This document shows, piece by piece, positions 2,582 through 16,730 of a stretch of 64,000 nucleotides of DNA. Position 1 is the first letter of the stretch. Every line of letters starts with the position of its first letter. The stretch lies in contig NZ_JAEACP010000008.1 in the NCBI RefSeq assembly GCF_015999335.1, positions 1-64,000 of the forward strand. The letters are read 5' to 3'. The position numbers were made by a program, and so were the translations under genes. The notes beneath the pieces were generated by a model that saw nothing but the letters and a program-made list of their open reading frames with translations, did no database searches and was not told the origin of the DNA. The stretch comes from Tabrizicola soli (GTDB lineage: Bacteria > Pseudomonadota > Alphaproteobacteria > Rhodobacterales > Rhodobacteraceae).

Positions 2582-2592
2582 TCGCTTGCCTC

Positions 2593-2623
2593 CGCCGCCG
2601 GGAACCCGTGTTTCCCGGCGGCG
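2593..2623 (+). terminator. Hairpin after the fasciclin gene
   Basis: A perfect 12-bp stem pairs 2593-2604 with 2612-2623 around a 7-nt loop, followed by TTGTGTCT rather than a pure T-run. It lies just after the fasciclin stop. The same bases contain a GSR promoter match (2601-2625), so this may be both terminator and promoter. Confidence 0.6.
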
Positions 2624-2625
2624 TT
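2601..2625 (+). promoter_or_regulatory. EcfG-type (general stress) promoter before the 161-aa secreted protein
   Basis: GGAAC at 2601-2605, 16-nt spacer, CGTT at 2622-2625: a perfect match to the alphaproteobacterial GSR consensus GGAAC-N16/17-CGTT. The -10 lies 45 nt before the ATG at 2670. It sits inside a hairpin, so chance overlap is possible. The clustering of identical motifs in the next 14 kb makes a real promoter more likely. Confidence 0.55.
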
Positions 2626-2669
2626 GTGTCTCCGAACTGCCGATCCGGCACCATTTCGGGAGACAGACC

Positions 2670-3155
2670 ATGTTTCGCATGAAAACCCTTGCCGCCACCG
2701 CCGTGGTGGCCGTCCTTTCGACCTCTGCCTTCGCTGCCGTCGACCAGATCGCGAAGATCGACGTGACCGCCGACCTGACCGCGATCGGAAACGAGAAGGC
2801 CGCAGCCTTCTGGGCCAATCTGGAAACCGACCTCGAGAACGCCATCGCCGCCCGCGTCACCGACCGGGTGGCCGACACCGGGGCCGAGATCCTGGTCGAC
2901 ATCCGCGAGGTCGAACTGGCCAGCGCCTTCGACCGCGAGCTGAACCTGGGCGATGCGGTCCTGGTGGGTCAGGTGAACATCAAGGACGACACCGACAACT
3001 CGAACTTCGACGCCTACGAACTCAGCGTCTCGTTGGAGAACGCCCAGATCGTCCTGCCCGAGGGCACGTTCCTTCTCCTGTCCACCGACACCACCGGCGC
3101 CTACAACCGGCTGGTCGAGACCTTTGCCGACGGCGTCGTGTCCCGGCTGAAGTGA
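2670..3155 (+). CDS. Exported protein of unknown function, 161 aa
   Basis: I do not recognise the family. The chain begins MFRMKTLAATAVVAVLSTSAFAA, a clear Sec signal peptide cleaved near residue 23. The mature part is acidic, about 138 residues, and looks alpha/beta, with repeated Asp/Glu-rich segments (KIDVTADLTAIG, EILVDIREVELA, VLVGQVNIKDDTDNS). There are no cysteines or membrane segments in the mature part. The start at 2670 was chosen over upstream in-frame codons because it gives a proper signal peptide and has GGGAGAC before it. A GSR promoter match 45 nt upstream suggests stress induction. Confidence 0.75.
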   Translation: MFRMKTLAATAVVAVLSTSAFAAVDQIAKIDVTADLTAIGNEKAAAFWANLETDLENAIAARVTDRVADTGAEILVDIREVELASAFDRELNLGDAVLVGQVNIKDDTDNSNFDAYELSVSLENAQIVLPEGTFLLLSTDTTGAYNRLVETFADGVVSRLK

Positions 3156-3176
3156 CACCTCATCCACGAACCGATC

Positions 3177-3206
3177 GCAGCTGCATCCCGTCTGGGTTGC
3201 AGCTGC
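3177..3206. repeat. Inverted repeat after the 161-aa secreted protein gene
   Basis: GCAGCTGCA at 3177-3185 pairs with TGCAGCTGC at 3198-3206 around a 12-nt loop. It starts 22 bases after a stop codon and could be a weak transcription terminator, but no T-run follows. The half-site GCAGCTGC is itself palindromic, so a protein-binding role is equally possible. Confidence 0.4.
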
Positions 3207-3234
3207 ATTCATTAGGAGGCAGGATACCGATCGG

Positions 3235-3259
3235 GGAACGGCTCCCTCCGGGCATTGTT
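3235..3259 (+). promoter_or_regulatory. EcfG-like promoter (one mismatch) before the CHASE-domain kinase
   Basis: GGAAC at 3235-3239, 16-nt spacer, TGTT at 3256-3259, against the consensus CGTT. The -10 is 64 nt before the kinase start at 3323. The same TGTT variant precedes the DUF1328 gene at 13258-13261. Support comes mainly from orientation, position and neighbourhood. Confidence 0.4.
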
Positions 3260-3322
3260 GAGACGAGTCGCAGACAGAATGTATCCCGTTACTGACCCCC
3301 CCGCCGCGACACCGGGCAGGAC

Positions 3323-4963
3323 ATGATGCGACGCAGGCCCGGCCCGCTGCCCGTGTTCGTGTTCCTTGCCGCGACGGCCGTCGGCGCCGGGCTGGTCTGG
3401 GCCGTCCATGTCGTCGAAAGCCAGCGGGACCGCACCGATTTCGAAGCCTCCGCCGACCTGGCCGTCGACCGTGTCGTGACGCGGATCGAAAAGCACGTCG
3501 TCCTGCTGCAGGCCACCCGTGGCCTCATCGCGGCGCAGGAGGGCGAGCTGAACCGCCTGGCCTTCGACCGTTTCATGGCGACCATCGACACGATCAACGA
3601 GCTGGGCGGCGTGCAGGGTCTCGGATTCGCCCGGTTGATCCCGACCGCCAACTCCCCCGCCGTCGAGGCAGAGATCGAGGCGCGTTACCGCGTCGACGTC
3701 CAGGTCCGCCCGCCCACGACCGAACCCTGGCGCACTCCGATCGTGATGCTGGGCCCCGTCACGGACCGCAATCTCGTCGCACTGGGCTATGACATGTATG
3801 TCGATCCGACCCGTCGCGCCGCGATGGGCCGGGCCATCGTCAGCGGCCTGCCGCAGATGAGCGGCCCGGTCGAGCTCGTGCAGGAAATCACCCAGGACAA
3901 GCAGACCGGCTTCCTGATCTATCTCGCCTTCGGCACCGGCCCGGATACTCCCACCTCCGGCTTCGTCTATGCCCCCTTCCGCGGCGGCGATCTCGTGCGC
4001 GCCGCTCTGGCGGCCGGTCCGCCGCTTCCGGTTGCCGTCACCGTCACCGACACCGAGGCGCCCGACCGGCCGATCTATACCAGCCCCGACAAGCCGCTCG
4101 GCCAGGGCCTCGTCCTGCAGCGCGCGGTCGAGCTTGCGGGCCGGCAATGGTCCTTCACGGTGCGGGAACTTTATCCGCCCGCCCCCTGGCGCCGCAACAT
4201 CGGCAGCCTCCTGGTCGGGGTGATCTCGTTCCTCTTTGCCGGGGCCGCCGCCGCCGCCGTCAGCGCCCGCCAGAACGAGGCCGAGCAGGTCCGCGCCCTG
4301 GCCGCCGCCGCCCGGCGCGAGGCGGAATACCGCGGGCTTCTCCTCAACGAGATGAAGCACCGGATCAAGAATCATATCGCAAGGATCCAGTCCATCGCCC
4401 GGCAAAGCGCGCGCGGAGCCACGGACGTGAAGGCTTTCACCGATGCTTTCGACGCCCGGCTTCAGGCCATGGCCGCCGTGCAGGAGATCCTCGCCGGCAC
4501 CGCCGTGCCCCAGGCCGACGTCCGCTCCATCCTGCGGACGGAGCTCCGTCAGGGCCTCGACACCGACCAGGTCGAGCATCTCATGGAAGGCCCGGTCGTG
4601 CGGCTGGACGAGCGGCAGGCCCATGCCTTCGCCATGGTCGCGCATGAGCTGGTGACGAATGCGATGAAATACGGCGGCCTCACGCCCGAGGGGAAGGGCC
4701 TGCGCATCGCCTGGTCCCTGGGCCCCGGCCCGGACGGGGCCGAAGAGGTGACGGTGGACTGGGGCGAACGCTTCGCCGCGACCCCCGAAGCCGGAGCCCC
4801 GCCCCCCGGCTTCGGCTCGCGCCTGATCGACGCCAGCCTGAAGGGAGAGCTTTCCGGCACACTGACCCGCGACTTCCATGCTGCGGGATTGCGGATCCTG
4901 TTGCGCTTTCCGCTCAAGCCTGCGGTCGGCGCGGCCGCGCCCGAGCAGATGGCCGCACAATGA
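3323..4963 (+). CDS. CHASE-domain sensor histidine kinase of the HWE/HisKA_2 type
   Basis: A 546-residue membrane kinase. Order: transmembrane helix near residues 8-28, periplasmic CHASE-type sensor region to about 285 (EARYRVDVQVRPP and GYDMYVDPTRRAAM are typical CHASE segments), second helix near 292-313, then a HisKA_2/HWE phospho-acceptor motif MKHRIKNHIARIQ with His346. The ATPase domain looks intact: N-box HELVTNAMKYGG with Asn446 and a GFGSRLID glycine box. HWE/HisKA_2 kinases are the usual activators of PhyR, and this one lies 2.7 kb from phyR with no response regulator of its own. The partnership is inference. ATG at 3323; a strong terminator follows. Confidence 0.87.
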   Translation: MMRRRPGPLPVFVFLAATAVGAGLVWAVHVVESQRDRTDFEASADLAVDRVVTRIEKHVVLLQATRGLIAAQEGELNRLAFDRFMATIDTINELGGVQGLGFARLIPTANSPAVEAEIEARYRVDVQVRPPTTEPWRTPIVMLGPVTDRNLVALGYDMYVDPTRRAAMGRAIVSGLPQMSGPVELVQEITQDKQTGFLIYLAFGTGPDTPTSGFVYAPFRGGDLVRAALAAGPPLPVAVTVTDTEAPDRPIYTSPDKPLGQGLVLQRAVELAGRQWSFTVRELYPPAPWRRNIGSLLVGVISFLFAGAAAAAVSARQNEAEQVRALAAAARREAEYRGLLLNEMKHRIKNHIARIQSIARQSARGATDVKAFTDAFDARLQAMAAVQEILAGTAVPQADVRSILRTELRQGLDTDQVEHLMEGPVVRLDERQAHAFAMVAHELVTNAMKYGGLTPEGKGLRIAWSLGPGPDGAEEVTVDWGERFAATPEAGAPPPGFGSRLIDASLKGELSGTLTRDFHAAGLRILLRFPLKPAVGAAAPEQMAAQ

Positions 4964-4964
4964 A

Positions 4965-4996
4965 GGACGGCCCGCGCCGCCCGGCGCGGGCCGTCC
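4965..4996. terminator. Bidirectional terminator between convergent genes
   Basis: A perfect 15-bp GC-rich stem pairs 4965-4979 with 4982-4996. It begins one base after the kinase stop and ends 18 bases before the PRC-barrel stop on the other strand. No strong T-run follows in either direction. Confidence 0.65.
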
Positions 4997-5014
4997 TAGG
5001 TCGCGGGGGCGCGC

Positions 5015-5956
5015 TCACTCCTTCTTGAATTCGGGCAGCGCCTCAAGTTCTTCCTTGGTCATGTCGACCCAGATCGCCAGGTCGCCGCCGCTGCCCTGGG
5101 CCACGGTCAGCCGATCCAGCGGGATGGCCACGGCCTTGGCGCCGATCCCCAGGAAGCCGCCCACGTCCAGCACCACGTCGGTCACCTGGCCTTCGCCCGT
5201 CAGCACCAGATCCGAGATCTCGGCAATCGAATTGTCGGAGGTGTCGCGCACATTCGCCCCGGTCAGCATCTCGGCGGTCAGCGTCTCGCGCTCGACGGCG
5301 ACATAGCCCTCGGGCAGGGTGACCGCCCCCGGCGGGGTGGTCGCGGTGTCACCCGCCGCAGTCGCATCGGCCGCAGCCGCCGCATCGGCGTCGGGAGCAG
5401 GCTCGGCGCCGGCGTTGGCGTCGGTATTGGTGTCGGCCGTCGCATCGGCGTTGGCGGCGTCCGCGTTCGCAGCGTCAGCGGCGGCAGCCTCATCGGTCGC
5501 GGCGGTGGTGTCGGCCGTGGTGTCAGTCGTGGCCGCAGCGCCCGGCACAACCCATTCCGGCGCGGTGTCCAGGGCGGCGCGGTCGGCCTGCATCACCAGG
5601 AACCAGTCGTCCGCATCCGTGGCGTCGTCCTGGACAAAGCGCAGGGCCGCCATGTCGACCGCGACCTGGCGCTCGCCGATTCCCAGGAAGCCGCCGATAT
5701 CGACCAGCACCGCATCGACGCTGCCGTCACGGCCCAGAATGATGTCGTTCACTTCGCCGATGTCGTTCCAGCCCTCCTGCACGCCGTTATAGGCGTCGGC
5801 GTCAACGGCGGCCTCGCTGGCATAGATCCGCGCGCCGATCATGTCCGAAGCCGCAACCGCGGGCCCTGCGGCCTCGGTCTGGAACTGAGAGGTCTGGGCC
5901 AGCGCAGGATAGGCAAGGCCGGCCGCCATGGCGGTTGTAAGAAGCAGAGTTTTCAC
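5015..5956 (-). CDS. Exported protein with two PRC-barrel domains and an Ala/Asp/Thr-rich linker
   Basis: A 313-residue protein. The start is taken as the GTG at 5956, which has AGGAGAG upstream and begins a standard signal peptide (KTLLLTTAMAAGLAYPALAQ); the longer frame to 6082 would spoil it. Two PRC-barrel-like repeats share the signature VDIGGFLGIGERQVAVDM / LDVGGFLGIGAKAVAIPL (about residues 35-120 and 225-313). They are joined by a low-complexity linker of roughly 75 residues rich in Ala, Asp and Thr. PRC-barrel proteins of this kind are commonly stress-induced in alphaproteobacteria. A perfect EcfG promoter lies 56 nt upstream. Confidence 0.85.
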   Translation of the reverse strand: MKTLLLTTAMAAGLAYPALAQTSQFQTEAAGPAVAASDMIGARIYASEAAVDADAYNGVQEGWNDIGEVNDIILGRDGSVDAVLVDIGGFLGIGERQVAVDMAALRFVQDDATDADDWFLVMQADRAALDTAPEWVVPGAAATTDTTADTTAATDEAAAADAANADAANADATADTNTDANAGAEPAPDADAAAAADATAAGDTATTPPGAVTLPEGYVAVERETLTAEMLTGANVRDTSDNSIAEISDLVLTGEGQVTDVVLDVGGFLGIGAKAVAIPLDRLTVAQGSGGDLAIWVDMTKEELEALPEFKKE

Positions 5957-6011
5957 GGGACTCTCCTGTGTCTGTGATGCGGCAGGTCTTTCGCCGCTTG
6001 TACCGGGGATC

Positions 6012-6036
6012 AACGTCCCCGCATCCGGCGGGTTCC
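6012..6036 (-). promoter_or_regulatory. EcfG-type promoter of the PRC-barrel gene
   Basis: On the minus strand, GGAAC (plus 6032-6036), 16-nt spacer and CGTT (plus 6012-6015) match the GSR consensus exactly. The -10 lies 56 nt upstream of the GTG at 5956. Confidence 0.78.
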
Positions 6037-6085
6037 GGCCGGTTTCCGCGGTCCGGGCGCCCTTGGGCGGGAAAGCGCGCAAGGC

Positions 6086-7666
6086 TCAAACCATCTCGTC
6101 GGGAACCAGAGGGAAAGCGCGGCCGAAATCCTCGGCCGATTTCGGGTCATAAGGCAGGATGAAGCCCCGCCGCCGCGCGGGCGGCAGTCTCGCGTTCCGC
6201 GCCGCCAGCGCCCGCCAGGCCATCAGCGCCCTATCCGGATCGAAGAAATCCTCGCCCGCCCCCGACGGCAGCCAGTGCTCCATCAATCGCCGCCGCAGCG
6301 CGACCACTTCCTCCGGCCGGTCGATCACCAGCCCCGCCTCGGTATCCCAGCGCAGCGAGCGCCCGTTCAGGTTGGCCGAGGAGACGATCGCCCGCCAGTC
6401 GTCGAAGATGCTGACCTTGGCATGGATATAGACCAGCGGCGCGCCCTTCAGCTGCGCCCGGCCGCCTACCCTGGTCCTGCGGCGCTGCGCCGCCCCGCCG
6501 ATGAACAGCCGCCGACCGAATCCCTTCCGCAGGATCCGCAAGGCCTGCGCCTGCAGGAACTCGCCCAGCCGCGCGTCCAGCCGGGTCGAGCCATCGAAAG
6601 CCACGTCATCCGGCGCGGCGGGCAGGATCAGGATCATCCTCAGCTCCGGGTTCCGCCGCGCCTCTCCGGCAAGGTGGCGGGCAAGGCGGCGGTCGCGGAA
6701 ATACTGCGTCTCGACATAGATCAGCCGCCGCGCCCGCCCGATGGCCTCGTGATGCGCCGCCTCGATCTCGGCCACCAGGGGCTCGGGCGCGATCTGCCGC
6801 CCCGCCCAGCGCAAGCGCCGGCGCGAGAGCGTGCGGACAAAGCGTACCCCCTCGCGCCAGGGCGGGGCGGGCAGCGGGTCGGCCGTCCCCGCCACCGTCG
6901 AGAGAAAACCTTCCAGATGTGCTTTCGCATCCCCGGCCACCGGCCCCTCGATCATCAGTTGCACGTCATGCCAGGTCTCGTGTCCCGGCAGTTCGTGCTC
7001 GGGCGTGTCGTAGAACCTTTCGTCCAGATCCAGCCCGCCGATGTAAAGCCGCCGCCCGTCGATGACCGCCAGCTTCTGGTGATGCGTCGCGGGATGCAGC
7101 ACCGGCACCGCCAGGACCCTGGGCCGGGGCCTGTGCTCCAGCGGCCCGGCCAGCAGGCGCCGCACCCCCGGCATCTCGCGCAGCGCAGCCAGGCGGCGGG
7201 GCGGGAGTTGCCGGCGCAGCCAGCGGCTCAGGCGCGCAAGCCGCGACAGGACCAGCGGCCAGAACAAGAGCCGCGGCCCGATCCCCGCCACCGCCGAATG
7301 CATCGCCGGGATCACCTGCAGCCACGCGCCCGGCCCGGCAAGTTCGGCCGCCGCCCAGAACATCCTGACCGTCCGCCAGGTCGCCCGGTGCAGCCGGGGC
7401 CGCGCGACGGGATCGAAATCCGACAGGATAACCGTCACCCGCACCCCCCGCCGCAGGGTGTGGATCACCAGCTCGAACCAGGTCCGTCCCACCGCCAGCC
7501 CTTCGGCCGAGCGCAGCCGGGTCTTCAGGTCGAAGACGCGGAACCCGGCCAGGATCTCGCTTTCGGCGCTCAGGAAAGCCCGCTCCAGCGCGGGATAGGC
7601 TTCGGCCGCGGTGACCAGCACCGCGACCCGGCCTGCAACGGGCGCGACGGAGTCCGGCTCCGCCAT
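6086..7666 (-). CDS. Phospholipase D-like (cardiolipin synthase family) protein
   Basis: A 526-residue protein with two HKD-type catalytic motifs: HHQKLAVIDGRRLYIGGLDL near residue 196 and HAKVSIFDDWRAIVSSANLNGRSLRWDTE near residue 414. The second carries the Asn-Gly-Arg-Ser and Asp-Glu residues usual in cardiolipin synthases. Proteins of this family transfer phosphatidyl groups or hydrolyse phospholipids. No obvious N-terminal membrane anchor is seen, unlike classical Cls, so the exact substrate is open. It starts ten bases after the phyR stop on the same strand and is probably co-transcribed with phyR, hence stress-induced. Confidence 0.83.
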   Translation of the reverse strand: MAEPDSVAPVAGRVAVLVTAAEAYPALERAFLSAESEILAGFRVFDLKTRLRSAEGLAVGRTWFELVIHTLRRGVRVTVILSDFDPVARPRLHRATWRTVRMFWAAAELAGPGAWLQVIPAMHSAVAGIGPRLLFWPLVLSRLARLSRWLRRQLPPRRLAALREMPGVRRLLAGPLEHRPRPRVLAVPVLHPATHHQKLAVIDGRRLYIGGLDLDERFYDTPEHELPGHETWHDVQLMIEGPVAGDAKAHLEGFLSTVAGTADPLPAPPWREGVRFVRTLSRRRLRWAGRQIAPEPLVAEIEAAHHEAIGRARRLIYVETQYFRDRRLARHLAGEARRNPELRMILILPAAPDDVAFDGSTRLDARLGEFLQAQALRILRKGFGRRLFIGGAAQRRRTRVGGRAQLKGAPLVYIHAKVSIFDDWRAIVSSANLNGRSLRWDTEAGLVIDRPEEVVALRRRLMEHWLPSGAGEDFFDPDRALMAWRALAARNARLPPARRRGFILPYDPKSAEDFGRAFPLVPDEMV

Positions 7667-7675
7667 CCCATCGGG

Positions 7676-8485
7676 TCAGGGGCGCAGACTGTCGGTCGAC
7701 GAGAAGAACATCGCCTGACTGACAGCCGAGCGGACCTGCTCCTCGGTATAGGGCTTGTTGATCAGGAAGGCCGGTTCGGGCCTTTCCCCTGTCAGAAGCC
7801 GTTCGGGGAAGGCGGTGATGAAGATCACCGGAATATCGCCGAACTGGGCCAGGATCTCGTTCACCGCCTCGACGCCCGAGGAATTGTCGGCCAGCTGGAT
7901 ATCCGCCAGGATCAACTCCGGCCGCTCGGCCGCCGCCATCTTCACCGCCTCCGCATGGGTGCGGGCATTGTCGGTGACCCGGTGCCCCATCCCCTCGACG
8001 ATCGCGGCGATGTCCATGGCGATGATCGCCTCGTCCTCGATCACCAGCACCGAGCCGCGGACCGAGTCTTCCATCTCGCGGATCGCGGTCTCGACCAGAT
8101 GCTTCGCCTCGGCCTCGTCGATCCCCATGATCGCCGCGACCTGGTCCAGATCGAAACCCTCGATCGTGTTCAGAAGCAGCGCCTCGCGCGAATTGTGGGT
8201 CAGCCGCGCCAGATGCGCCTGGGCGGCGCTTGCCAGCCCGCCCTCGGCCTCGGCCACCGGGGCGCCGGAACTGGACCAGACCGAATGGAATACGGCGAAC
8301 AGCGCGACCCTGGGGTCGTCATGCTGCGCCAGAAGGGCCGGCTCGGCGACGACAGCCTCCAGCACCGCCACGGCATAGCGGTCGCCGCTGGTCTGGTTTC
8401 CGGTCAATGCACGGGAATAGCGGCGCAGATAGGGTAGATGGCGGGCAACGGTTGCCGAAAGATCCACCGTGTCCTGTGCGAGCAT
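7676..8485 (-). CDS. phyR: PhyR, general stress response regulator (sigma-like domain plus receiver)
   Basis: A 269-residue protein with an N-terminal EcfG-like sigma domain (about residues 8-125: DLSATVARHLPYLRRYSRALTG and a sigma4-like HNSREALLLNTIEGFDLDQVAAIMGI) and a C-terminal receiver (about 143-262). The phospho-acceptor is Asp195 in LADIQL, with acidic pocket residues Glu150-Asp151-Glu152 and the conserved Lys in INKPY. When phosphorylated, PhyR binds the anti-sigma factor NepR and releases EcfG. The start at 8485 is chosen because GGGAGAG precedes it; the longer frame to 8599 overlaps the promoter. Divergent from nepR-ecfG. Confidence 0.95.
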   Translation of the reverse strand: MLAQDTVDLSATVARHLPYLRRYSRALTGNQTSGDRYAVAVLEAVVAEPALLAQHDDPRVALFAVFHSVWSSSGAPVAEAEGGLASAAQAHLARLTHNSREALLLNTIEGFDLDQVAAIMGIDEAEAKHLVETAIREMEDSVRGSVLVIEDEAIIAMDIAAIVEGMGHRVTDNARTHAEAVKMAAAERPELILADIQLADNSSGVEAVNEILAQFGDIPVIFITAFPERLLTGERPEPAFLINKPYTEEQVRSAVSQAMFFSSTDSLRP

Positions 8486-8528
8486 GTACAAACTCTCCCT
8501 CGTCATTTTCGCTATGCGTCGCAGGGCC

Positions 8529-8553
8529 AACGCTCCACCGTGGCTTCGGTTCC
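8529..8553 (-). promoter_or_regulatory. EcfG-type promoter of phyR
   Basis: On the minus strand, GGAAC (plus 8549-8553), 16-nt spacer, CGTT (plus 8529-8532): an exact GSR consensus 44 nt before the phyR ATG. It gives positive feedback on the regulator. Confidence 0.85.
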
Positions 8554-8591
8554 ACAGGGGCGGATGGATCGGCAAATTTCGGCTCCGCCTT

Positions 8592-8617
8592 GGAACCATG
8601 TGTATGTTGAAGGCGTT
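8592..8617 (+). promoter_or_regulatory. EcfG-type promoter of nepR-ecfG
   Basis: GGAAC at 8592-8596, 17-nt spacer, CGTT at 8614-8617, 34 nt before the nepR ATG. Together with 8529-8553 it forms a divergent promoter pair, the arrangement known from other alphaproteobacterial GSR loci. Confidence 0.85.
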
Positions 8618-8650
8618 CGTCCATCACGAGTGAGTGGGAAGCAGAGCGAT

Positions 8651-9411: not shown

Positions 9412-11105
9412 CATTGGCAAGGGCGGGCAGACTCGCGAAAAGCACCTTGGGCTTCCGCTTGGGCAGCACGCTGGTCCTGGCGCTGATGCCGCTTGGCGTT
9501 CTCTCCGTCGTCCAGACCCAGTCCGCCCAGAACGAGATGGTCGCCTCCACCCTGGAAGGCGTGGCCGGGGCCTCGCTCAAGGCGGTGCAAGAGCAGATCG
9601 ACCTGATCAACGACGCCCGGATCTCGGCCCGGGTAATGGCGGCCGCCCTCTCCATCACGCTCAGTGAACACGGCTCCTGCTCGGACCGGGCAAAGGCCGT
9701 GAACGACGGTCTGCCCAGCGCGGCCCTGGTCGCCTATCTGCCGATGTCCGGCCTGATGAGCTGCTCCTCGACCGGCGCTGTCCACGACTTCGGCACCAGC
9801 GCGCATTTCCGCACCGCGATCTCCCGGCCCGAGCCGATGGTCATGTACAACCCGCATGGGGAGGTCTCTGACACCGCCGTCGTCGCCGTGACGCATCCGG
9901 TCTTCGACCGGCAGGGTGCCCAGACCGGGATCGTGTCGATCTCGCTTCCCTATTTCTCGGTCGCGCCGCAGGCCTATGCCGATCCCGTCGCGCTCTGGCA
10001 GCCGGTCTATCTTGCCACGATCCGGGGCGACGGCACGCTTCTCATCGGCTCCGATCCCGGCCGCGACCTGGCCTCCGCCCTTCCCCCCGGCGTGACCGCC
10101 GCCTCGCTTGCCGAACGCGCCGGCAAGCCCGCCCTGCTTGAGGACGAGGGTGCCAGCCGCATCCTCTCCGTCACTTCCGTCGCCCGCGACCTTTACCTGC
10201 TTTCGATCTGGCAGCGCGAAAGCGCCGGTATTCTCAGCCCTGCCAGCTGGGTGGCGCCCTATCTGCTGCCTGTGCTCACCTGGCTGGCCGCGCTTGTCGC
10301 CGCCAGCTTCGCCTCCAGCCACCTTGTCGTGCGCCATGTCCGCGCCCTGTCGCGCTCGATGTCCGACTACATGGCGACCCGCAGCCGCATCATGGTGCCC
10401 GACATCACCGACGCGCCTGCCGAAATCCAGCGCCTGCACGCCGTCTACGAACAGCTGATCCGCACCATCGAGCACGAGGAGGCCGAGCTTCAGAACCTGA
10501 TCGTGGACAAGGACGTCCTCCTGCGCGAGGTGAACCACCGCAACGGCAACAGCCTGCAGATCATCGCCTCGGTGATGCGGATGTATCGCCGCGAAAGCCG
10601 GGACGACGAGGTGCGGGCGATCCTCGACGGCCTGATCAACCGCGTGATCGCGCTGTCGTCCACCCACAGCAGCCTTTACAGCATGACCGGCCGCCGCGAC
10701 GTGCCGATGGACGAGATCCTGGCCGGCGTCGTGCGGCGGCTCAAGGAAATCCACGGCGTCGCCCTTGGCGTGGCGCGCAAGCATTTCGATCCCGTCCGGA
10801 TGCCGGTCGAGGCCGCGGTTCCCCTTGCCATGGCCCTTGCCGAGATCATCGGCTGCCATTTCCACGCCCGCTCGGTCGCCAGCGAAGGCGTGGACATCTC
10901 GTTTCGGGAAAAGGACGGGGAGATCTGCCTCAAGGTCGAAGGCCCGATCGTGCCCGAGTTCCTGCCCGAGACCCTGAGCGGGATCGCCGCCCTGCCGCGC
11001 CGGATGCTGCTTCAGTTCGCCGCGCAACTGCGTGGCAAGGTGGCGATCCGCTCCGCAGACAACCGCTCGGCGGTCGAGGTGACCTTCCCCCATATCGCCG
11101 TCTGA
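9408..11105 (+). CDS. Membrane HWE/HisKA_2-type histidine kinase of the GSR operon with a degenerate ATPase domain
   Basis: A 565-residue protein with a membrane helix near residues 16-36, a periplasmic Cache-like sensor region to about 280, a second helix near 285-305, a HAMP-like linker, then a HisKA_2-type box REVNHRNGNSLQII with acceptor His377. The following domain should bind ATP. Where a kinase has an N-box such as HELVTNA it reads ALAEIIGCHFHA, and no clear Asp-Gly or glycine-rich lid box is visible before the C-terminal VEVTFPHI strand. It may therefore not phosphorylate by itself. Translation starts at a TTG overlapping the ecfG stop (a second TTG is at 9414), so it belongs to the nepR-ecfG operon. 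Confidence 0.85.
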   Translation: MTLARAGRLAKSTLGFRLGSTLVLALMPLGVLSVVQTQSAQNEMVASTLEGVAGASLKAVQEQIDLINDARISARVMAAALSITLSEHGSCSDRAKAVNDGLPSAALVAYLPMSGLMSCSSTGAVHDFGTSAHFRTAISRPEPMVMYNPHGEVSDTAVVAVTHPVFDRQGAQTGIVSISLPYFSVAPQAYADPVALWQPVYLATIRGDGTLLIGSDPGRDLASALPPGVTAASLAERAGKPALLEDEGASRILSVTSVARDLYLLSIWQRESAGILSPASWVAPYLLPVLTWLAALVAASFASSHLVVRHVRALSRSMSDYMATRSRIMVPDITDAPAEIQRLHAVYEQLIRTIEHEEAELQNLIVDKDVLLREVNHRNGNSLQIIASVMRMYRRESRDDEVRAILDGLINRVIALSSTHSSLYSMTGRRDVPMDEILAGVVRRLKEIHGVALGVARKHFDPVRMPVEAAVPLAMALAEIIGCHFHARSVASEGVDISFREKDGEICLKVEGPIVPEFLPETLSGIAALPRRMLLQFAAQLRGKVAIRSADNRSAVEVTFPHIAV

Positions 11106-11111
11106 GACGAT

Positions 11112-11145
11112 TGCGGCCGGCCCCCTGTTTCGGGGACCGGCCGCA
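11112..11145. terminator. Bidirectional terminator between convergent operons
   Basis: A 9-bp stem (11112-11120 with 11137-11145) continues into an inner C/G stem around TGTTT. It lies between the kinase stop and the DUF3618 stop on the opposite strand. Confidence 0.6.
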
Positions 11146-11162
11146 TGAATTTGCCGGATGGA

Positions 11163-12053
11163 TCAGTGCCGGACGTCGGTCCCGCGCCAGGCATGTTCGG
11201 GACGCAGCACCAACCGCGCGCGCTCGATGTCGCGGCCCATCGCCGACTTCAGCTCCTGCGCCAAGTCGCTGGCCCTGGTGACCTCGGCCCGCGCGGCGGC
11301 CTTGGCGTCATCGACCAGCTGGTCGCGGGCATCGCCCATCAGCCGGTCCTCCAGTTCGGTCGGGGGGAACATGCAGGCCACCGCCGCCCCCGCCGCCGCC
11401 ATGGCCATGCCTGCGGCAAGCGGGTAGGTCTCGACAACCTCGCGCCCCTTGGCGGTCGCGGCCACGCTGGCGGTGTAGACCCGCTCCCGCGCCTCCAGCG
11501 CCTCGGCCCGGGCGGCTTCGGTCAGCCCCTCCAGCCCGTGCCCCAGCGCCGCGCCCGTGTCGCGCGCGAAGGCGCCCATCACCGCGGCCCGATGCTTGGC
11601 CAGCTCCGCCGCCGGGGTCAGGCCGTGCCGCGCCGCATGGTCGATCTGCCGCAGCAGATCGGCCGCGCGGGCGCGCAACCCCTTGGCCCGGGTCAGCCAC
11701 TCCTCCTCGGGATCGACCGGCTCGGCCAGCGGCGGGCCGCCCTCGTCCTCCCAGCGGGTGAGGGCCTCGAACTTCTCGGGCGGACGGGGATGCCTCTCCG
11801 CCGTCTGCCGATGCCGGCCCAGGATCAGCGCCGCCAGCGCCACGCCCGCCACCGCCGCGACAAGGGGCTGCGCCCGTATCGCATGGTCCAGCCGTGACAG
11901 CAGAGGCGCGGCCTGCGCGGCCAGCGCCTCCTTGCCCTGTTCGACCAGCGCCGAAGGGGTCAGCCGGTCATGCAACTCGGACAGGGACCTCGCCAGTTGC
12001 ATCCGGTCGCGCTCCAGTTCGCGTTCGATCTCATGGCAATCCACGTCAGACAT
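11163..12053 (-). CDS. DUF3618 family membrane-associated protein
   Basis: A 296-residue protein starting MSDVDCHEIERELERDRMQLARSLSELHDRLTP, the N-terminal helical motif of DUF3618. A hydrophobic segment follows near residues 62-80 (PLVAAVAGVALAALILG), then a long Ala/Glu/Arg-rich helical region and a second weak hydrophobic stretch (AAGMAMAAAGAAVACMF, about 208-224). Function is unknown; the family is an accessory envelope protein often found next to holin-like proteins. It overlaps the preceding gene by eight bases and is the last gene of a three-gene operon under a likely EcfG-like promoter. Confidence 0.8.
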   Translation of the reverse strand: MSDVDCHEIERELERDRMQLARSLSELHDRLTPSALVEQGKEALAAQAAPLLSRLDHAIRAQPLVAAVAGVALAALILGRHRQTAERHPRPPEKFEALTRWEDEGGPPLAEPVDPEEEWLTRAKGLRARAADLLRQIDHAARHGLTPAAELAKHRAAVMGAFARDTGAALGHGLEGLTEAARAEALEARERVYTASVAATAKGREVVETYPLAAGMAMAAAGAAVACMFPPTELEDRLMGDARDQLVDDAKAAARAEVTRASDLAQELKSAMGRDIERARLVLRPEHAWRGTDVRH

Positions 12054-12465
12054 GTCGCACTCCTTCCTCGCTTATGGCGGCGCGCACCGCTTCGGCATCG
12101 CGCCGAACCCCGCGCAGCGCCCGGTCGGGCCATAGACCCCGCAGCCGCAGCGCCGCGCGCCCGGCCAGCGCCAGCACAAGGGCCAGCACGCACAGCGCCA
12201 GCCCCACGATCAGCGCCGCCCAGCCCGCCCCAAGACCGGCCTCGGCCAGAGCGGCGACGGCGGCACCGGCCAGGACGTTCAGCCCGACCAGCGCCAGGAT
12301 CGCCGCCAGCACGATCTTGACCAACCCACCCACGGCCATCCGCAGACCCGCGCCCGCCTCGGCCCTGGCCAGCATCAGCTCGCCCTTGACCAGACGCCCC
12401 AGACCCGTGACCACATCGGACAACAGCGTGCCCGTGGGCTCGGTGCTTTCCGCCGGGCCCGGCAT
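12046..12465 (-). CDS. Phage-holin-like (holin superfamily III, DUF1469-like) small membrane protein
   Basis: A 139-residue protein: an N-terminal amphipathic part (LLSDVVTGLGRLVKGELMLARAEAGAGLRMA) followed by two strong membrane helices (about residues 45-70 and 80-105) and a basic cytoplasmic tail. This is the layout of the holin-X superfamily. No lysin or phage gene is nearby, and such chromosomal copies are thought to act in envelope stress rather than lysis. Its ATG overlaps the upstream stop (TGATG), so the operon is translationally coupled. Confidence 0.8.
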   Translation of the reverse strand: MPGPAESTEPTGTLLSDVVTGLGRLVKGELMLARAEAGAGLRMAVGGLVKIVLAAILALVGLNVLAGAAVAALAEAGLGAGWAALIVGLALCVLALVLALAGRAALRLRGLWPDRALRGVRRDAEAVRAAISEEGVRHV

Positions 12466-13064
12466 CAGACTCGCGGCCCCTGGTGACGGTCATGCTCGGC
12501 CATCCGGCGGTGCGCCGAAGACCGCACGAAGCGCGCCGCCGCAAAACCCACTACGGCCGCGGCCGCCATGAAGGCCCCCGGATGCCGCCGCGCCATCTCG
12601 CGCACGTCCGCCGTCAGATCCGAGACCGACCGCTGCCGCAGCACGTCCGAGGCCTGCGTCAGCCCCTGCGCCACGCTGCTCAGCACCTTCGACTTCAGCG
12701 CATCGCCGTCCTCGCCGTCGGCCGAGCGTTGCAGCGTCGCCGCCAGCCGCTCGCCCACGTCCGAAAGCGTCTCACGCGCCGTATCGGCCTTTTCCACCGC
12801 GACGTCCTTGACCGCCGCAAGGGTCGATCCCGCACCCGAGACGATCGCCTCCTTGGCATCCTTCAGGCGCGACCGGCCCTCGTCCATCGCCTCCGAGGCG
12901 CTGTCCTTCAGGCCGTCCAGCTTGCGCTTGCCTGCGTCCATGACGTCGCCCGCCTTCTCCATCGCGGCGGCGCCGCCCTCGCTCGCGGTTTCGGCCAGCG
13001 ACTGGGCCAGGTTGCTGCCCGAGCCTTCCGACTGGTCGTCTGATTTCTTGTAGGTCCCGTTCAT
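12465..13064 (-). CDS. Nutrient-deprivation-induced-like / LEA-like helical stress protein
   Basis: A 199-residue hydrophilic protein of amphipathic repeats rich in Ala, Asp, Glu and Lys (AMEKAGDVMDAGKRKLDGLKDSASEAMDEGRSRLKDAKEAI), similar in style to late-embryogenesis-abundant proteins. The end REMARRHPGAFMAAAAVVGFAAARFVRSS is a C-terminal membrane tail typical of rhizobial nutrient-deprivation-induced proteins. It probably coats or stabilises membranes during stress. The start at 13064 follows CAGGAGA; the upstream in-frame extension overlaps the promoter region. First gene of the operon with the holin-like and DUF3618 genes. Confidence 0.75.
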   Translation of the reverse strand: MNGTYKKSDDQSEGSGSNLAQSLAETASEGGAAAMEKAGDVMDAGKRKLDGLKDSASEAMDEGRSRLKDAKEAIVSGAGSTLAAVKDVAVEKADTARETLSDVGERLAATLQRSADGEDGDALKSKVLSSVAQGLTQASDVLRQRSVSDLTADVREMARRHPGAFMAAAAVVGFAAARFVRSSAHRRMAEHDRHQGPRV

Positions 13065-13140
13065 GGCAGATCTCCTGAAATTTCCGGGGTAAGGTCCATG
13101 CACGGCGCCAGGGTCCGGCGGCTGTGCGTCACGATCTGAC

Positions 13141-13166
13141 AATGCGAAAGCCGCCGGATCGGTTCC
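13141..13166 (-). promoter_or_regulatory. EcfG-like promoter of the three-gene envelope stress operon
   Basis: On the minus strand, GGAAC (plus 13162-13166), 17-nt spacer, CATT (plus 13141-13144), one mismatch from CGTT. The -10 is 77 nt before the ATG at 13064. The bases round the GGAAC (GATCGGTTCCCGTC on the plus strand) recur at the perfect promoter near 16726. Confidence 0.5.
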
Positions 13167-13235
13167 CGTCCGCTGCCCCACCCCCGCACCCGGTCGGCCA
13201 GCCCCCGCCTGCCGCAAACTTTTTCCTGCCCCGGC

Positions 13236-13261
13236 GGAACCTTGGCCCCCGAGCGGGTGTT
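13236..13261 (+). promoter_or_regulatory. EcfG-like promoter of the DUF1328 gene
   Basis: GGAAC at 13236-13240, 17-nt spacer, TGTT at 13258-13261, one mismatch from CGTT, 59 nt before the ATG at 13320. Confidence 0.5.
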
Positions 13262-13319
13262 GAGTCGCAAAACGTCATCCTGCGCGGCTTCCCCGCGCCC
13301 TGACCAAAGGAGAAATCCC

Positions 13320-13481
13320 ATGCTCAGTTGGGCAGTCACATTCCTGATCATCGCGATCATCGCCGGCGTCCTTGGCTTTGGCGGCATCGCGGGCACCTCG
13401 GCCGGGATCGCGCAGATCCTGTTCTTCATCTTCCTGGTGCTGTTCGTCATCTCGCTGTTCCGCGGCGCGCTCCGCCGCTGA
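13320..13481 (+). CDS. DUF1328 family small membrane protein
   Basis: A 53-residue protein almost entirely made of two membrane helices, beginning [29 protein letters not shown] and ending with the basic tail FRGALRR, the DUF1328 (YtjA) pattern. Function unknown; in alphaproteobacteria the gene is a frequent member of the general stress regulon. The ATG at 13320 is preceded by AAAGGAG. It is monocistronic, with an EcfG-like promoter upstream and a strong intrinsic terminator downstream. Confidence 0.88.
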
Positions 13482-13531
13482 GCCGACCCCCCGAGGGGCG
13501 ACGGTCCTTCCCTGCCGTCACCTCTCGATCT

Positions 13532-13562
13532 GGGGCTGCAGCTTCGGTTGCAGCCCCTTTTT
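13532..13562 (+). terminator. Intrinsic terminator of the DUF1328 gene
   Basis: A 9-bp stem pairs 13532-13540 with 13549-13557 around an 8-nt loop, immediately followed by five T residues (13558-13562). A classical rho-independent terminator. Confidence 0.88.
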
Positions 13563-13616
13563 CATGCACGATCCTTTCGGCCGCGCTTCTTTCACGAGCG
13601 ATCATGTCTCATAGGA

Positions 13617-14093
13617 TCAGGCGGCGACCGGCTGGGTCGGCCGCTGCGGCTGGATCTGCAACAGCACCCGGATCCGGTCCTGCGCCATCCGCCCGTCCAG
13701 CCGTTGCAGGAAGGCCCGCAGCGATTCCAGCGCCGGCCCCTCCTGGATCGCCAGCACCACCTCCGACCCCGGCTTGCGGCGCAAGGACGGCAGGAAGGTC
13801 AGGATCGCGCACATCAGCGAGAACATCGCCTCGCCATCCTGCGCGTTTCCGGCCAGCACCAGCCGATCGAGCCCGCCCAGATCGCGGATCACGCCATGCA
13901 GATGCCGCAGCGAGGCGCTTTGCCGGAAATCGGTCCAGATCATCTGCGCGCCGGGCAGGGAAAGCTCGGCCAGCGTCATCCGCACCAGAGAGCTTCCGGC
14001 CACGATCACCACCGCGCCGTCGGCACGGCGCAACTGGTCCAGCGGCAAATCCAGCGCCGCCTCGTTCAGCAGGGTCACCGTTGCATGGCTCAT
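13617..14093 (-). CDS. Unrecognised 158-aa protein, possibly a Rossmann-like remnant
   Basis: I cannot assign a family. The chain begins MSHATVTLLNEAALDLPLDQLRRADGAVVIVAGSS and alternates predicted strands and helices (GAVVIVAG, GAQMIWTD, LDRLVLAGNAQDGEAMF, SEVVLAIQEG, DRIRVLLQI), suggesting a small alpha/beta Rossmann-like fold. A shortened SDR-type domain is one possibility. There is no signal peptide or membrane helix. The start at 14093 has GGGAGG eight bases upstream. It is divergent from the AI-2E-family gene, and a near-consensus GSR promoter lies 30 nt upstream. Confidence 0.65.
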   Translation of the reverse strand: MSHATVTLLNEAALDLPLDQLRRADGAVVIVAGSSLVRMTLAELSLPGAQMIWTDFRQSASLRHLHGVIRDLGGLDRLVLAGNAQDGEAMFSLMCAILTFLPSLRRKPGSEVVLAIQEGPALESLRAFLQRLDGRMAQDRIRVLLQIQPQRPTQPVAA

Positions 14094-14122
14094 GGCTCGT
14101 CCTCCCGTCCGGGCATGGGGCA

Positions 14123-14147
14123 AACCCCAAGGACGGCCCCCGGTTCC
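14123..14147 (-). promoter_or_regulatory. EcfG-like promoter of the 158-aa unknown gene
   Basis: On the minus strand, GGAAC (plus 14143-14147), 16-nt spacer, GGTT (plus 14123-14126), one mismatch from CGTT, 30 nt before the ATG at 14093. It is paired back to back with the perfect promoter at 14173-14197. Confidence 0.45.
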
Positions 14148-14172
14148 CTCGGGGCCCACAGGTTCCACGCCG

Positions 14173-14197
14173 GGAACCGGGGTGGGCCAGCGCCGTT
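14173..14197 (+). promoter_or_regulatory. EcfG-type promoter of the AI-2E family gene
   Basis: GGAAC at 14173-14177, 16-nt spacer, CGTT at 14194-14197: an exact GSR consensus. It lies 24 nt before the ATG at 14221, or 36 nt before the alternative ATG at 14233. Confidence 0.78.
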
Positions 14198-14220
14198 GTC
14201 GGGCGGACAGGGACCAGCGC

Positions 14221-16101
14221 ATGGGGATCAGGATGCCAGAAGAACCGGCCGCGCCGAACGACCTCACGCTTCCCTTTTCCCCCGATCCCCCGCCCGGCGC
14301 GACCTCGGTCGCCTCGCTGCGGACGCTTGCCACCATCACCGTGGTCTGCGCCATCCTTTACGTCGCCAAGGACCTGTTCCTGCCCCTGGCGCTCGGCATG
14401 CTGATCGCCTTCATCCTGACCCCCGTGGTCAACGCCCTGCGCCACCGCGGCCTGCGCGACACCGTCGCGATCGTGCTCACCGTGCTTTCCGCCGCCACGC
14501 TGGTCGGGGCCTTCGTCCTGATCCTCGCCTTCCAGATCAGCCAGATCGGCTCTAATCTGCCGCAATATCAGGGCAACGTCCTGACCAAGATCGATTCGCT
14601 GCTCGACGCCGGCAAGGACAGCCGCATCATCTCGCACCTCCAGGGCTTGGTCGAGCGGATCTCGGACCGCCTCGCCGCCGAAAGCGCCGTCACCGACGAC
14701 GCCGCGATGAAGGTCGAGGTGGTCGAGCACACTGGCCTGAAGGACTGGCTGACCGGAGTCATCCTGCCCGCCATGACCCCGGTGGGGATCTTCGGCCTGA
14801 TCTTCGTCGTCGCCATCTTCGCCCTCCTCGAACGCGGCGCGCTGCGCGACCGGCTGGTGCAGCTGATCGGAGGGACCAACATCCTCGCCACCTCACGCCT
14901 CCTGGCCGAGGCCGGGGCGCGGGTCTCGACCTATCTCTTCGCCCAGCTGGTGGTGAACGTGATCTATGCCGTGCCGATCTGGCTCGGCCTCTGGCTGATC
15001 GGCGTGCCCAACGCGCTGTTCTTCGGTCTCGTGACGCTGGTGATGCGCTTCGTACCCTATATCGGCTCGGCGATCTCGGCGCTTCTGCCGCTTCTCATGG
15101 CCTTCGCCGTCTCGCCCGACTGGTCGCTGGTGCTCTGGACCGGGGCGCTGTTCCTGGTCGTGGAGTTCACCACCTCGAATTTCATCGAGCCCTGGTTCTA
15201 CGGCCAGCGCACCGGCCTCTCGCCGCTGGCCGTCATCGTCTCGGCGATGTTCTGGACCTGGCTCTGGGGTCCGGTCGGGCTGATCATGGCCACACCGCTG
15301 ACCGTCTGCCTCGTCGTCGTCGGCCACCATGTCCCCAGCCTGCGCCTCTTCCCGATCATGCTTGGCGACCAGCCCGTCCTGGCCGAATCCGCGCGCCTCT
15401 ACGACCGCCTCCTCGCCGGCCATTCCTTCGCCTTCACCGAGGCCGCGACCGCCTCGACCGCGCAGAACTATCTGGCCGACTACTACGACCGCAGTGCCAT
15501 CCCGGCACTGGCGCTGGCCCAGGCCGACCATGAGGCGGGCCTTCTCTCCGACTACCAGACCAACCGCATCGCCCATTCCGCCTGGAGCCTGACCGAGGAC
15601 CTTGAAGCCGTGGTCGAGGACGAGCTCGCCTCGGCCGCCGAGGCTCCCGCCGAGGGGGCGGAGGCCGCGCCGCTGGTGTCGAATGGCGTGCTTGACGGGC
15701 TGGGCAAGCGCATCGCGGTCATGGGGGCACGCACCGGGCTGGACGACGCGGCCGCACAGATGCTCTCGCAAGCCCTGCGCGCCGAAGGAGCCGAGTCGCG
15801 CGCGGTGCCGCATCGCTCGCTGATGCCGCGCGCGCTCGGGGACCTCGATCCCCAGACGCTGGTCCTCGTCTCGCTGGACGCCAGCCTGCCGCGTTCGGTG
15901 GATTTCCAGCTCCGCCAGCTCCGCCGCCGCCTGCCTGGTATCCGCATCGGCCTGGCGCTCTGGCCGCCCGAGGACGGCCCCCTGCCAGAGCCGGCCGGCG
16001 CCGATTTCGTGGTCCGGGGCATGGAGGCGGTGCTTTCGGCCGCCTTCGACCGACCTTCGCCCACGGAAAAGGCCGGACAGTCCCCCGCCCGGCCCGCCTG
16101 A
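14221..16101 (+). CDS. AI-2E family membrane protein with a C-terminal soluble extension
   Basis: A 626-residue protein. Residues about 35-375 form the AI-2E/PerM-type membrane domain, with helices such as LATITVVCAILYVAKDLFLPLALGML, the GxPNALFFGLVTLVMRFVPYIGS segment and the family signature NFIEPWFYGQRTGLSPLAVIVSAMFWTWLWGPVGLIMATPLTVCLVVVG. About 240 further residues are cytosolic and end in an alpha/beta domain (KRIAVMGARTGLDDAAAQMLSQALRAEG ... TLVLVSLDASLPRSVDFQLRQLRRRLPGIRIGLALWP). Substrate unknown; members range from autoinducer-2 export to Na+/H+ antiport. An in-frame ATG at 14233 may be the true start. Under a perfect EcfG promoter. Confidence 0.85.
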   Translation: MGIRMPEEPAAPNDLTLPFSPDPPPGATSVASLRTLATITVVCAILYVAKDLFLPLALGMLIAFILTPVVNALRHRGLRDTVAIVLTVLSAATLVGAFVLILAFQISQIGSNLPQYQGNVLTKIDSLLDAGKDSRIISHLQGLVERISDRLAAESAVTDDAAMKVEVVEHTGLKDWLTGVILPAMTPVGIFGLIFVVAIFALLERGALRDRLVQLIGGTNILATSRLLAEAGARVSTYLFAQLVVNVIYAVPIWLGLWLIGVPNALFFGLVTLVMRFVPYIGSAISALLPLLMAFAVSPDWSLVLWTGALFLVVEFTTSNFIEPWFYGQRTGLSPLAVIVSAMFWTWLWGPVGLIMATPLTVCLVVVGHHVPSLRLFPIMLGDQPVLAESARLYDRLLAGHSFAFTEAATASTAQNYLADYYDRSAIPALALAQADHEAGLLSDYQTNRIAHSAWSLTEDLEAVVEDELASAAEAPAEGAEAAPLVSNGVLDGLGKRIAVMGARTGLDDAAAQMLSQALRAEGAESRAVPHRSLMPRALGDLDPQTLVLVSLDASLPRSVDFQLRQLRRRLPGIRIGLALWPPEDGPLPEPAGADFVVRGMEAVLSAAFDRPSPTEKAGQSPARPA

Positions 16102-16108
16102 GAAAGTC

Positions 16109-16132
16109 GGGGCGGAACCGAAGTTCCGCCCC
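16109..16132. terminator. Bidirectional terminator between AI-2E and PNPOx genes
   Basis: A perfect 10-bp stem (16109-16118 with 16123-16132) with a CGAA tetraloop-like loop, between two convergent stop codons. Confidence 0.7.
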
Positions 16133-16143
16133 TTCCATGGCAA

Positions 16144-16653
16144 TCAGAGGTCGGCCCGCCCTCTCGTCCCCAGATCGGGAGAGCGTCCTTCCACTGCGCC
16201 ACGAACGATATTCGCAATTCCCCGCAACAGCCCGTGTCCGTCCCAGACATCGGCATGGTCCGGGTCGATCACCAGCGCGACCACGTCATGCGCCTCCGGC
16301 CCCTCGGGCCAGAAGACCTTGGCCCCCGGCGACCACAATTCCCTGACCAGCTCCTTGTCGGAATCCACCGTGGCCTGCCCGTGCAGGGCCACATGGTCGC
16401 CCCGCCCCTGAAACGACAGGAAGACCGAGCCATTCACCCGGACATCCTTGGCCGCATCCGAGGTGCTTTCTGTCAGCACATAGACCAGCCCCCGGTCTGG
16501 CTTCGGGATGGTGGACATCGGCCGCCCGCGCATCCCCTGGTCGGAACAGGTGACCAGCATCGCGATGTCGATCCTGTCGATCATCTCCCAGACCCGCGCA
16601 GGCTCGATCGCCTCGGGCTTCTGGTCGGTCTGCTTGTCGCCGTCACGGGTCAT
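16144..16653 (-). CDS. Pyridoxamine-phosphate-oxidase-like general stress protein
   Basis: A 169-residue protein with the split-barrel flavin-binding fold of the general stress protein 26 group. Diagnostic stretches are MLVTCSDQGMRGRPMSTIPK, LVYVLTESTSDAAKDVRVNGSVFLSF and HVALHGQATVDSDKELVRELWSPGAKVFWPEG. Members bind FMN or F420-like cofactors; the physiological substrate is unknown. The start at 16653 is chosen because it lies 53 nt after a perfect EcfG promoter and gives family length; the frame extends to 16704 through the promoter. Likely stress-induced and monocistronic. Confidence 0.87.
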   Translation of the reverse strand: MTRDGDKQTDQKPEAIEPARVWEMIDRIDIAMLVTCSDQGMRGRPMSTIPKPDRGLVYVLTESTSDAAKDVRVNGSVFLSFQGRGDHVALHGQATVDSDKELVRELWSPGAKVFWPEGPEAHDVVALVIDPDHADVWDGHGLLRGIANIVRGAVEGRSPDLGTRGRADL

Positions 16654-16705
16654 TGGCGGGGTCCGGATTGAAAACCGGCGGCCGATGGCCGCCACTCCCC
16701 GCAAG

Positions 16706-16730
16706 AACGTCCGGATCCCGGATCGGTTCC
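16706..16730 (-). promoter_or_regulatory. EcfG-type promoter of the PNPOx-like gene
   Basis: On the minus strand, GGAAC (plus 16726-16730), 16-nt spacer, CGTT (plus 16706-16709): an exact GSR consensus 53 nt before the ATG. Confidence 0.8.

Follow-up and report, generated by a model that had tools for sequence, protein, structure and literature searches.

In other Alphaproteobacteria, the general stress response (GSR) circuit of phosphorylated PhyR, release of NepR and the sigma factor EcfG is established (PMC5830050, in the parts of the text available). The same regulators are found in the GSR locus of Rhodobacter sphaeroides, RSP_1271-1274 (PMC5830050, same parts), and in that of Rubellimicrobium thermophilum, for which EcfG-type promoters have been predicted (PMC12148442, likewise in the available parts). 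Here, we analysed 64,000 nucleotides of Tabrizicola soli (Rhodobacteraceae; contig NZ_JAEACP010000008.1, positions 1 to 64,000; hereafter the window), in which a GSR cluster occupies positions 2601 to 16,730. This cluster has the features of the alphaproteobacterial PhyR-NepR-EcfG locus as it is generally known and as the accessible portions of three papers describe it (PMC5830050, PMC7083833, PMC6180224): the regulator set, divergent phyR and nepR-ecfG, an EcfG-type promoter before nepR-ecfG and a kinase beside ecfG. We are confident that the window holds a core GSR locus with predicted EcfG sites and that, in most of the Rhodobacteraceae examined, the putative promoters of phyR and nepR-ecfG are one palindrome, perfect or degenerate, which has apparently been lost here. 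As judged from sequence comparison, what would be new is a palindrome acting as EcfG promoter of the GSR core, which is common across the family but missing from the window.

In many relatives, the region between phyR and nepR-ecfG contains one palindrome of 31-33 bp, GGAACC-N-AACG-N10/11-CGTT-N-GGTTCC, which reads as two complete EcfG promoters (-35 and -10) superimposed on opposite strands, each -10 sitting 2 nt from the opposite -35. Among overlapping plus- and minus-strand sites in the window and 105 loci, we found 34 distinct pairs, at offsets of 32 (n = 21), 33 (n = 11), 31 (n = 1) and 12 (n = 1); pairs at offset 32 have a 16-nt spacer on both strands and those at offset 33 a 17-nt spacer on both. 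The offset-12 pair belongs to a different gene pair than phyR and nepR: at L066:4983-5020 (L and G numbers are our handles for loci and genomes), the divergent 158-aa (amino acid) and AI-2E genes share a GGAACCGGTTCC core, in which two EcfG sites overlap at that offset. The two -35s have mean pairwise identities of 0.88 and 0.95 and the two -10s of 0.66 and 0.75; the middle 10 nt, at 0.31, are near random. The tetranucleotide AACG follows the -35 at 16/16 distal nepR sites and 15/23 phyR sites, and at none of the 15 proximal nepR sites; because it is confined to the phyR and distal nepR sites, it is best read as the opposite -10 and not as part of the -35. An extended -35 was considered as an explanation of AACG and rejected, since it is absent from all 65 EcfG sites that belong to other genes.

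The strict palindrome occurs in 15/32 genus genomes and in 56/296 family genomes (295 genera), exactly one copy each, with none in the reversed control in either set, and every one of the 56 family copies is located some 51-111 nt upstream of a match to the PhyR sigma2 domain. In the class sample it was found in 2/387 genomes, one of them inside the family. Degenerate forms are commoner than perfect ones. Loci were also compared by a palindrome score of up to 18. In a sample chosen blind to the palindrome (the 30 best PhyR-domain matches in the family sample, representing 30 genera, with 20 shuffles per locus), 25 loci score at least 15/18 and 28 at least 14, the highest shuffle reaching 14. 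Named Rhodobacterales loci score at least 17 in 22 of 25 cases (the exceptions being L087, L088 and L097), and none of 53 scored loci that are mainly from Rhizobiales (L114-L166) reaches 14/18.

Within the window's own lineage, 16 of 20 loci (the window and 19 genus loci) score at least 17 at phyR/nepR; the four that do not are the window, L061 (T. aquatica), L062 and L071. Alignment of these four shows the phyR half kept (with an altered -10 in L062), the nepR -35 lost and the proximal nepR site remaining. Thus, in the window, no two complete -35/-10 sets share DNA on the two strands, the nepR half being degenerate there as in L061, L062 and L071; comparison with relatives suggests that 8522-8553 is the degenerate remnant of a palindromic promoter. 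Its retained part is the predicted EcfG promoter of phyR (8529-8553, minus strand), a perfect motif found at 22/26 orthologs, and the separate proximal promoter (P2) predicted for nepR-ecfG-kinase (8592-8617, plus strand) is also perfect. An EcfG-type site, proximal or distal, is found in 20/21 nepR upstream regions, and 11 genus loci have both. The genus may record a series from a shared promoter, through a shared plus an extra promoter, to separate promoters, the direction of change being inferred. In the window's clade, the decayed nepR half and the proximal promoter at 8592 would leave the two transcription units uncoupled.

The initial annotation had drawn attention to this cluster by its density of EcfG-type motifs, which we re-examined by scanning both strands of the 64 kb for GGAAC-N16/17-CGTT against 100 dinucleotide shuffles. 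The six perfect sites that it listed, at 2601(+), 6012(-), 8529(-), 8592(+), 14173(+) and 16706(-), are indeed all of the perfect matches in the 64 kb, and all lie inside 2601-16730; 0.79 would be expected, the shuffle maximum is 4, and none of the 100 shuffles reaches six. For the 14.1-kb stretch, 0.24 sites would be expected (Poisson 2e-7, for a stretch picked after being seen), and a genome-wide scan confirmed that no other stretch of this length holds more than three. Its four one-mismatch sites are also present, at 3235-3259(+) with TGTT, 13141-13166(-) with CATT, 13236-13261(+) with TGTT and 14123-14147(-) with GGTT, and one-mismatch matches occur elsewhere in the window as well. The proposed spacing of 24-56 nt before the start codon holds for the six perfect sites but not for three of the four one-mismatch sites, which lie at 59-77 nt with the starts used here.

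Conservation was assessed by footprinting in the ecfG region of 19 genus members and six other genomes, plus the window, after locating orthologs of each window gene. A site was counted when a C/TGTT motif lay in the correct orientation within about 250 nt upstream; the window itself is counted, and denominators vary by gene, some fetched contigs being short (3.8 kb for L063). Seven genomes appear under two handles, L087, L088, L089, L092, L093, L094 and L097 corresponding to L061, L062, L063, L074, L075, L072 and L071, respectively, and the two sets were counted apart. In the window and genus, the motif was found in 117/237 upstream regions, a count that includes ecfG upstream regions partly re-reading nepR sites, against a mean of 0.84 and a maximum of 5 for shuffled motifs; five flanking genes together had it in 0/12. 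The strict motif was likewise absent before orthologs of the 199-aa gene (0/16), the DUF3618 gene (0/16), the Holin-X gene (0/17) and the second kinase gene (0/23). From the short gaps before them, most genes lacking a site look like downstream operon members, the CHASE-HWE kinase gene excepted. The predicted EcfG motif is thus conserved before orthologs of the member genes, except at 3235 and, in its strict form, at 13141. Co-occurrence points the same way: of 32 genus genomes, 20 contain an ecfG ortholog classed as close (E 5e-75 or better), weaker matches (E 1e-20 to 1e-28) being taken as other ECF (extracytoplasmic function) factors, and the AI-2E gene (matches up to E 1e-60) is present in 19/20 genomes with ecfG and 0/12 without (Fisher 5.8e-8), as is the 158-aa gene (matches up to E 1e-6) in 16/20 and 0/12 (Fisher 1.6e-5), p-values that are optimistic because of shared ancestry. 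The annotation's claim that EcfG sites precede most transcription units of the locus is therefore upheld by the orthologous sites and by the co-occurrence of effectors with ecfG, with the exception of 3235.

Several observations weigh against this reading. Only 56/296 family genomes have a perfect palindrome, a PhyR sigma2 match over cut-off being present in 185 of the 296, and strict scans of the window's own genome did not find a complete copy. In the palindrome-blind sample, 5/30 loci score 13-14, within the shuffle maximum, and 14/30 do not have C/TGTT sites in both directions; 16/30 have them superimposed. Family loci L081-L083 score 13/18 and three loci of other families 11-13; L061 has a 15/18 match at an unrelated position, which shows that the palindrome score alone is not decisive. 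The copy found outside the family (G502; L167:4087-4118) lies upstream of a receiver-like open reading frame, not of phyR. As for the individual sites, those of related genomes are not independent, and the bare motif shows no genome-wide enrichment (79 matches, 80 for the reversed control), the GGAACC-N15/16-YGTT form giving 44 against 34 in its control; the motif by itself is therefore weak evidence.

Instead of forming one two-way promoter, the palindrome might be where a dimeric transcription factor binds as its operator, or two ordinary promoters might have come to overlap by chance. A near-perfect inverted repeat is what dimer operators look like, one copy outside the family does not adjoin phyR, and the R. 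sphaeroides report may, in its available parts, place the nepR start elsewhere (PMC5830050). Yet each half matches an EcfG -35/-10 with a spacer of 16 or 17 nt, to which the two classes of middle, 10 and 11 nt, correspond, and the same motif, in one orientation and without AACG, precedes other genes of the cluster. With a wrong middle length of 13-14 nt, the palindrome is found in 0/296 family and 0/387 class genomes, and coincidence would hardly hold the offsets at 32 and 33 while the middle randomises. We consider the operator or coincidence explanation unlikely. A second alternative takes the density of sites as an accident of base composition and a loose motif, leaving only the phyR and nepR sites as meaningful. 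The genome-wide motif count equal to that of the control, the lack of conservation at 3235 and the one-mismatch matches elsewhere in the window all agree with it, but it is very improbable given the motif conservation footprinted across the window and 19 genus loci and the absence of the effectors where ecfG is absent.

That the cluster is a horizontally acquired island, as the term used in the initial annotation implied, is also improbable, and this part of the annotation was not borne out. Its patchy occurrence in the genus, with a close ecfG in 20/32 genomes, would fit acquisition; its GC content, however, matches the rest of the window, a comparison of gene order of the kind the annotation had called for found synteny from the fasciclin to the ClpB gene in the two nearest relatives, and PhyR sigma2 matches over cut-off are found in 185/296 family genomes. 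Loss in part of the genus is the simpler account. The GSR module has apparently been lost there: close ecfG, AI-2E and 158-aa genes are all undetected in 12 genomes, six of which are 96-100% complete (G297, G306, G307, G313, G317, G320) and six 59-90%. In L077 and L078, divergent members of the genus, many of the same genes surround ecfG in another order that resembles the Pseudotabrizicola loci L104-L106, and such re-ordered yet clustered genes argue for selection on clustering or on co-inheritance. In G323, the AI-2E gene and ecfG are on different contigs, so their link there is not one of simple adjacency.

On our reading of a core GSR locus with EcfG sites, and by analogy with other Alphaproteobacteria, stress would be sensed by the HWE/HisKA_2 kinases of the locus, leading to phosphorylation of PhyR, and phosphorylated PhyR would take NepR off EcfG. 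EcfG-RNA polymerase would then start at about nine GGAAC-N16/17-CGTT-type sites in the cluster and at further sites elsewhere in the genome; as the predicted sites include those of phyR and nepR-ecfG-kinase, the circuit would be autoregulated. Where the palindrome is intact, one EcfG-RNA polymerase could not fill both orientations of a 32-bp site, so that starts would be mutually exclusive: a bound polymerase would read into the anti-anti-sigma gene or into the anti-sigma/sigma operon but not into the two simultaneously, while both units would remain under the same level of active EcfG. Activity in both directions, mutual exclusion and an effect on the PhyR:NepR:EcfG stoichiometry are what the geometry of the site suggests. 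In L077 and L078, the palindrome is nearly equidistant from both start codons (-64/-57 and -62/-59), as might be expected for balanced output. More tentatively, with chances a little short of even, we propose that family-wide the GSR core is run from one palindromic EcfG site, exclusive initiation serving as a stoichiometry device that has been dismantled stepwise in the genus Tabrizicola. Partner-switching circuits rely on the relative amounts of sigma factor, anti-sigma factor and antagonist, and, if the proposal is true, a symmetric two-sided promoter would explain how this ratio is held when the genes diverge. Natural lineages with and without the palindrome permit a direct test, and the footprinting yields a list of likely GSR targets for the group.

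Turning to the other sites, the perfect motif predicted as the promoter of the 161-aa gene (2601-2625, plus strand) is kept in 6/6 upstream regions, the window included. A strong terminator-like hairpin at 2593-2623, downstream of the fasciclin gene, takes in the EcfG -35 of the 161-aa gene and extends as far as the -10; its stem has -25.7 kcal/mol in the window and only -8.0 to -14.2 in the other five, L061 retaining a 7-bp stem. The hairpin as sole cause of the 2601 motif was rejected, the motif being kept in all six regions. By contrast with the perfect sites, the one-mismatch site at 3235-3259 (plus strand), which the annotation had taken as a promoter, is judged to be chance: it is found at 1/11 orthologs of the CHASE-HWE kinase gene, the window itself, also with one mismatch allowed. 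Perfect motifs are the predicted promoters of the PRC-barrel gene (6012-6036, minus strand; 12/12 orthologs), the AI-2E gene (14173-14197, plus; 14/18) and the PNPOx-like gene (16706-16730, minus; 8/9). The site at 13141-13166 (minus), before the probable operon at 13064, is EcfG-like with a -10 of CATT; GGAACC-N-CATT precedes the 199-aa gene in 8/16 genus loci, or 9/16 if any one mismatch is accepted (shuffled motifs average 0.9, with a maximum of 7), and this recurrence supports it as a promoter with a different -10. The candidate promoter of the DUF1328 gene (13236-13261, plus; TGTT) has the C/TGTT motif in 13/19 and a site in 16/16 genus loci if one mismatch is allowed. That of the 158-aa gene (14123-14147, minus; GGTT) has the strict motif in 11/14, not including the window, and a site in 14/14 loci with one mismatch. 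Before the phospholipase D gene, a strict site is found in 1/15, and one mismatch gives 7/13 genus loci (control maximum 4), mostly GGTT and not in the window; before the second kinase gene, one mismatch gives 5/19, within the control maximum of 6.

The regulators lie in mid-cluster, as first annotated, and their identity is borne out by Pfam and NCBIfam matches over cut-off together with gene position. PhyR, the anti-anti-sigma response regulator (7676-8485, minus), has both the sigma-like domain and the receiver (PF22029, PF22233, PF00072), matches NCBIfam NF006623 with 356 bits (cut-off 240) and has PhyR of R. thermophilum (9by5) as its best PDB match. The anti-sigma factor NepR (8651-8839, plus), encoded between phyR and ecfG, matches PF18557 with 50 bits (cut-off 25.7, E 2.3e-13); a sequence search of the PDB with it gave nothing better than E 0.12. 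EcfG (8836-9411, plus; PF04542, PF08281) is encoded with nepR and opposite phyR and matches NF009198 with 288.6 bits (cut-off 270); the name EcfG/ECF15 for this ECF sigma factor rests on gene context. Its closest named relative, among the best 80 of 112 relatives, is that of Tabrizicola aquatica (95%). The PhyK-like HisKA_2 sensor kinase that follows (9408-11105, plus; PF07568) aligns along its length (22-555) to the PhyK model NF051872, with 142 bits against a cut-off of 750.

Around these, a fasciclin gene (plus strand) precedes the gene for the 161-aa protein of no family (2670-3155, plus), which is followed by those for the CHASE-HWE sensor kinase (3323-4963, plus; PF03924, PF07536), the PRC-barrel protein (5015-5956, minus; PF05239) and a phospholipase D/cardiolipin-synthase-like protein (6086-7666, minus; PF13091). 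The last is separated from phyR by about 10 nt and is probably cotranscribed with it in the window. Beyond the regulators lie the genes for a DUF3618 protein (11163-12053, minus; PF12277), a Holin-X-family membrane protein (12046-12465, minus; PF07332) and a 199-aa protein with no family over cut-off (12465-13064, minus), the last being the probable first gene of an operon with the other two. The cluster is completed by genes for a DUF1328 small membrane protein (13320-13481, plus; PF07043), the 158-aa protein of no family (13617-14093, minus), the AI-2E family transporter (14221-16101, plus; PF01594) and the PNPOx-like protein (16144-16653, minus; PF16242), beyond which lies a ClpB gene (minus strand). 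Proteins without a family were judged by open reading frame and profile searches, and an Rfam scan of positions 1-20000 gave no match over thresholds.

Outside the window and L080, the genome has 35 other GGAACC-N-YGTT sites: in 15 cases the site is intergenic and a gene follows no more than 250 nt downstream, 13 sites are intragenic, five are intergenic without such a gene and two fall at a gene edge. The sites with downstream genes indicate that the cluster is the core and not the whole of the regulon. Ten of the 15 downstream genes were profile-scanned; GGAACC sites precede genes for cyclopropane-fatty-acid-synthase-like (L202), MgtC (L180), OmpA-type (L197) and DUF1428 (L175) proteins, and one precedes a LuxR-type response regulator gene (L193). 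On the same contig, at about 89-94 kb (L080:9441-13579), two genes for Ku and one for LigD are found. Both Ku genes are preceded by a GGAACC-N-CGTT site whose -35 is 45-53 nt from the start, and next to them is the gene of another ECF sigma factor, which shares 39% identity with EcfG. Together, these genes could possibly form a GSR-controlled non-homologous end joining cluster. The annotation had called the packing of targets around their own sigma factor unusual. This stands in part: counting perfect sites at each ecfG locus gives a mean of 5.4 for 25 Rhodobacterales loci and of 2.8 for 53 others, mainly Rhizobiales (L114-L166, many of them close relatives of each other and drawn from the best 80 of 112 relatives), but those others also have sites around ecfG, and many sites here lie off the cluster. 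A DUF1328 gene with a site adjoins phyR in many Brucella/Ochrobactrum loci.

Compared with the general alphaproteobacterial locus, then, more target sites are packed around the regulators here, and both promoters appear to be merged in one palindrome in the majority of the Rhodobacteraceae loci examined, and in none of the 53 scored loci mainly from Rhizobiales. The available text parts of the R. thermophilum (PMC12148442) and R. sphaeroides (PMC5830050) accounts make no mention of a superimposed promoter or a packed regulon. Our literature search, at the level of titles and abstracts, found no palindromic or superimposed EcfG promoter, nor do the available passages of PMC7083833 and PMC6180224 mention one, most subscription papers being outside its coverage, so that absence from print is not proven. 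Overlapping divergent and symmetric bidirectional promoters, in which two opposite-strand promoters share DNA, are known in bacteria. The palindrome described here would differ from these in that both halves belong to one ECF sigma factor and are fully superimposed in a fixed geometry, and in that it faces a sigma/anti-sigma operon on one side and an anti-anti-sigma gene on the other. In the Bacillus sigB operon, the sigma factor, its anti-sigma factor and the antagonist are made together under autoregulation. Whereas there one operon makes all three, here, by analogy, one two-way promoter would do so.

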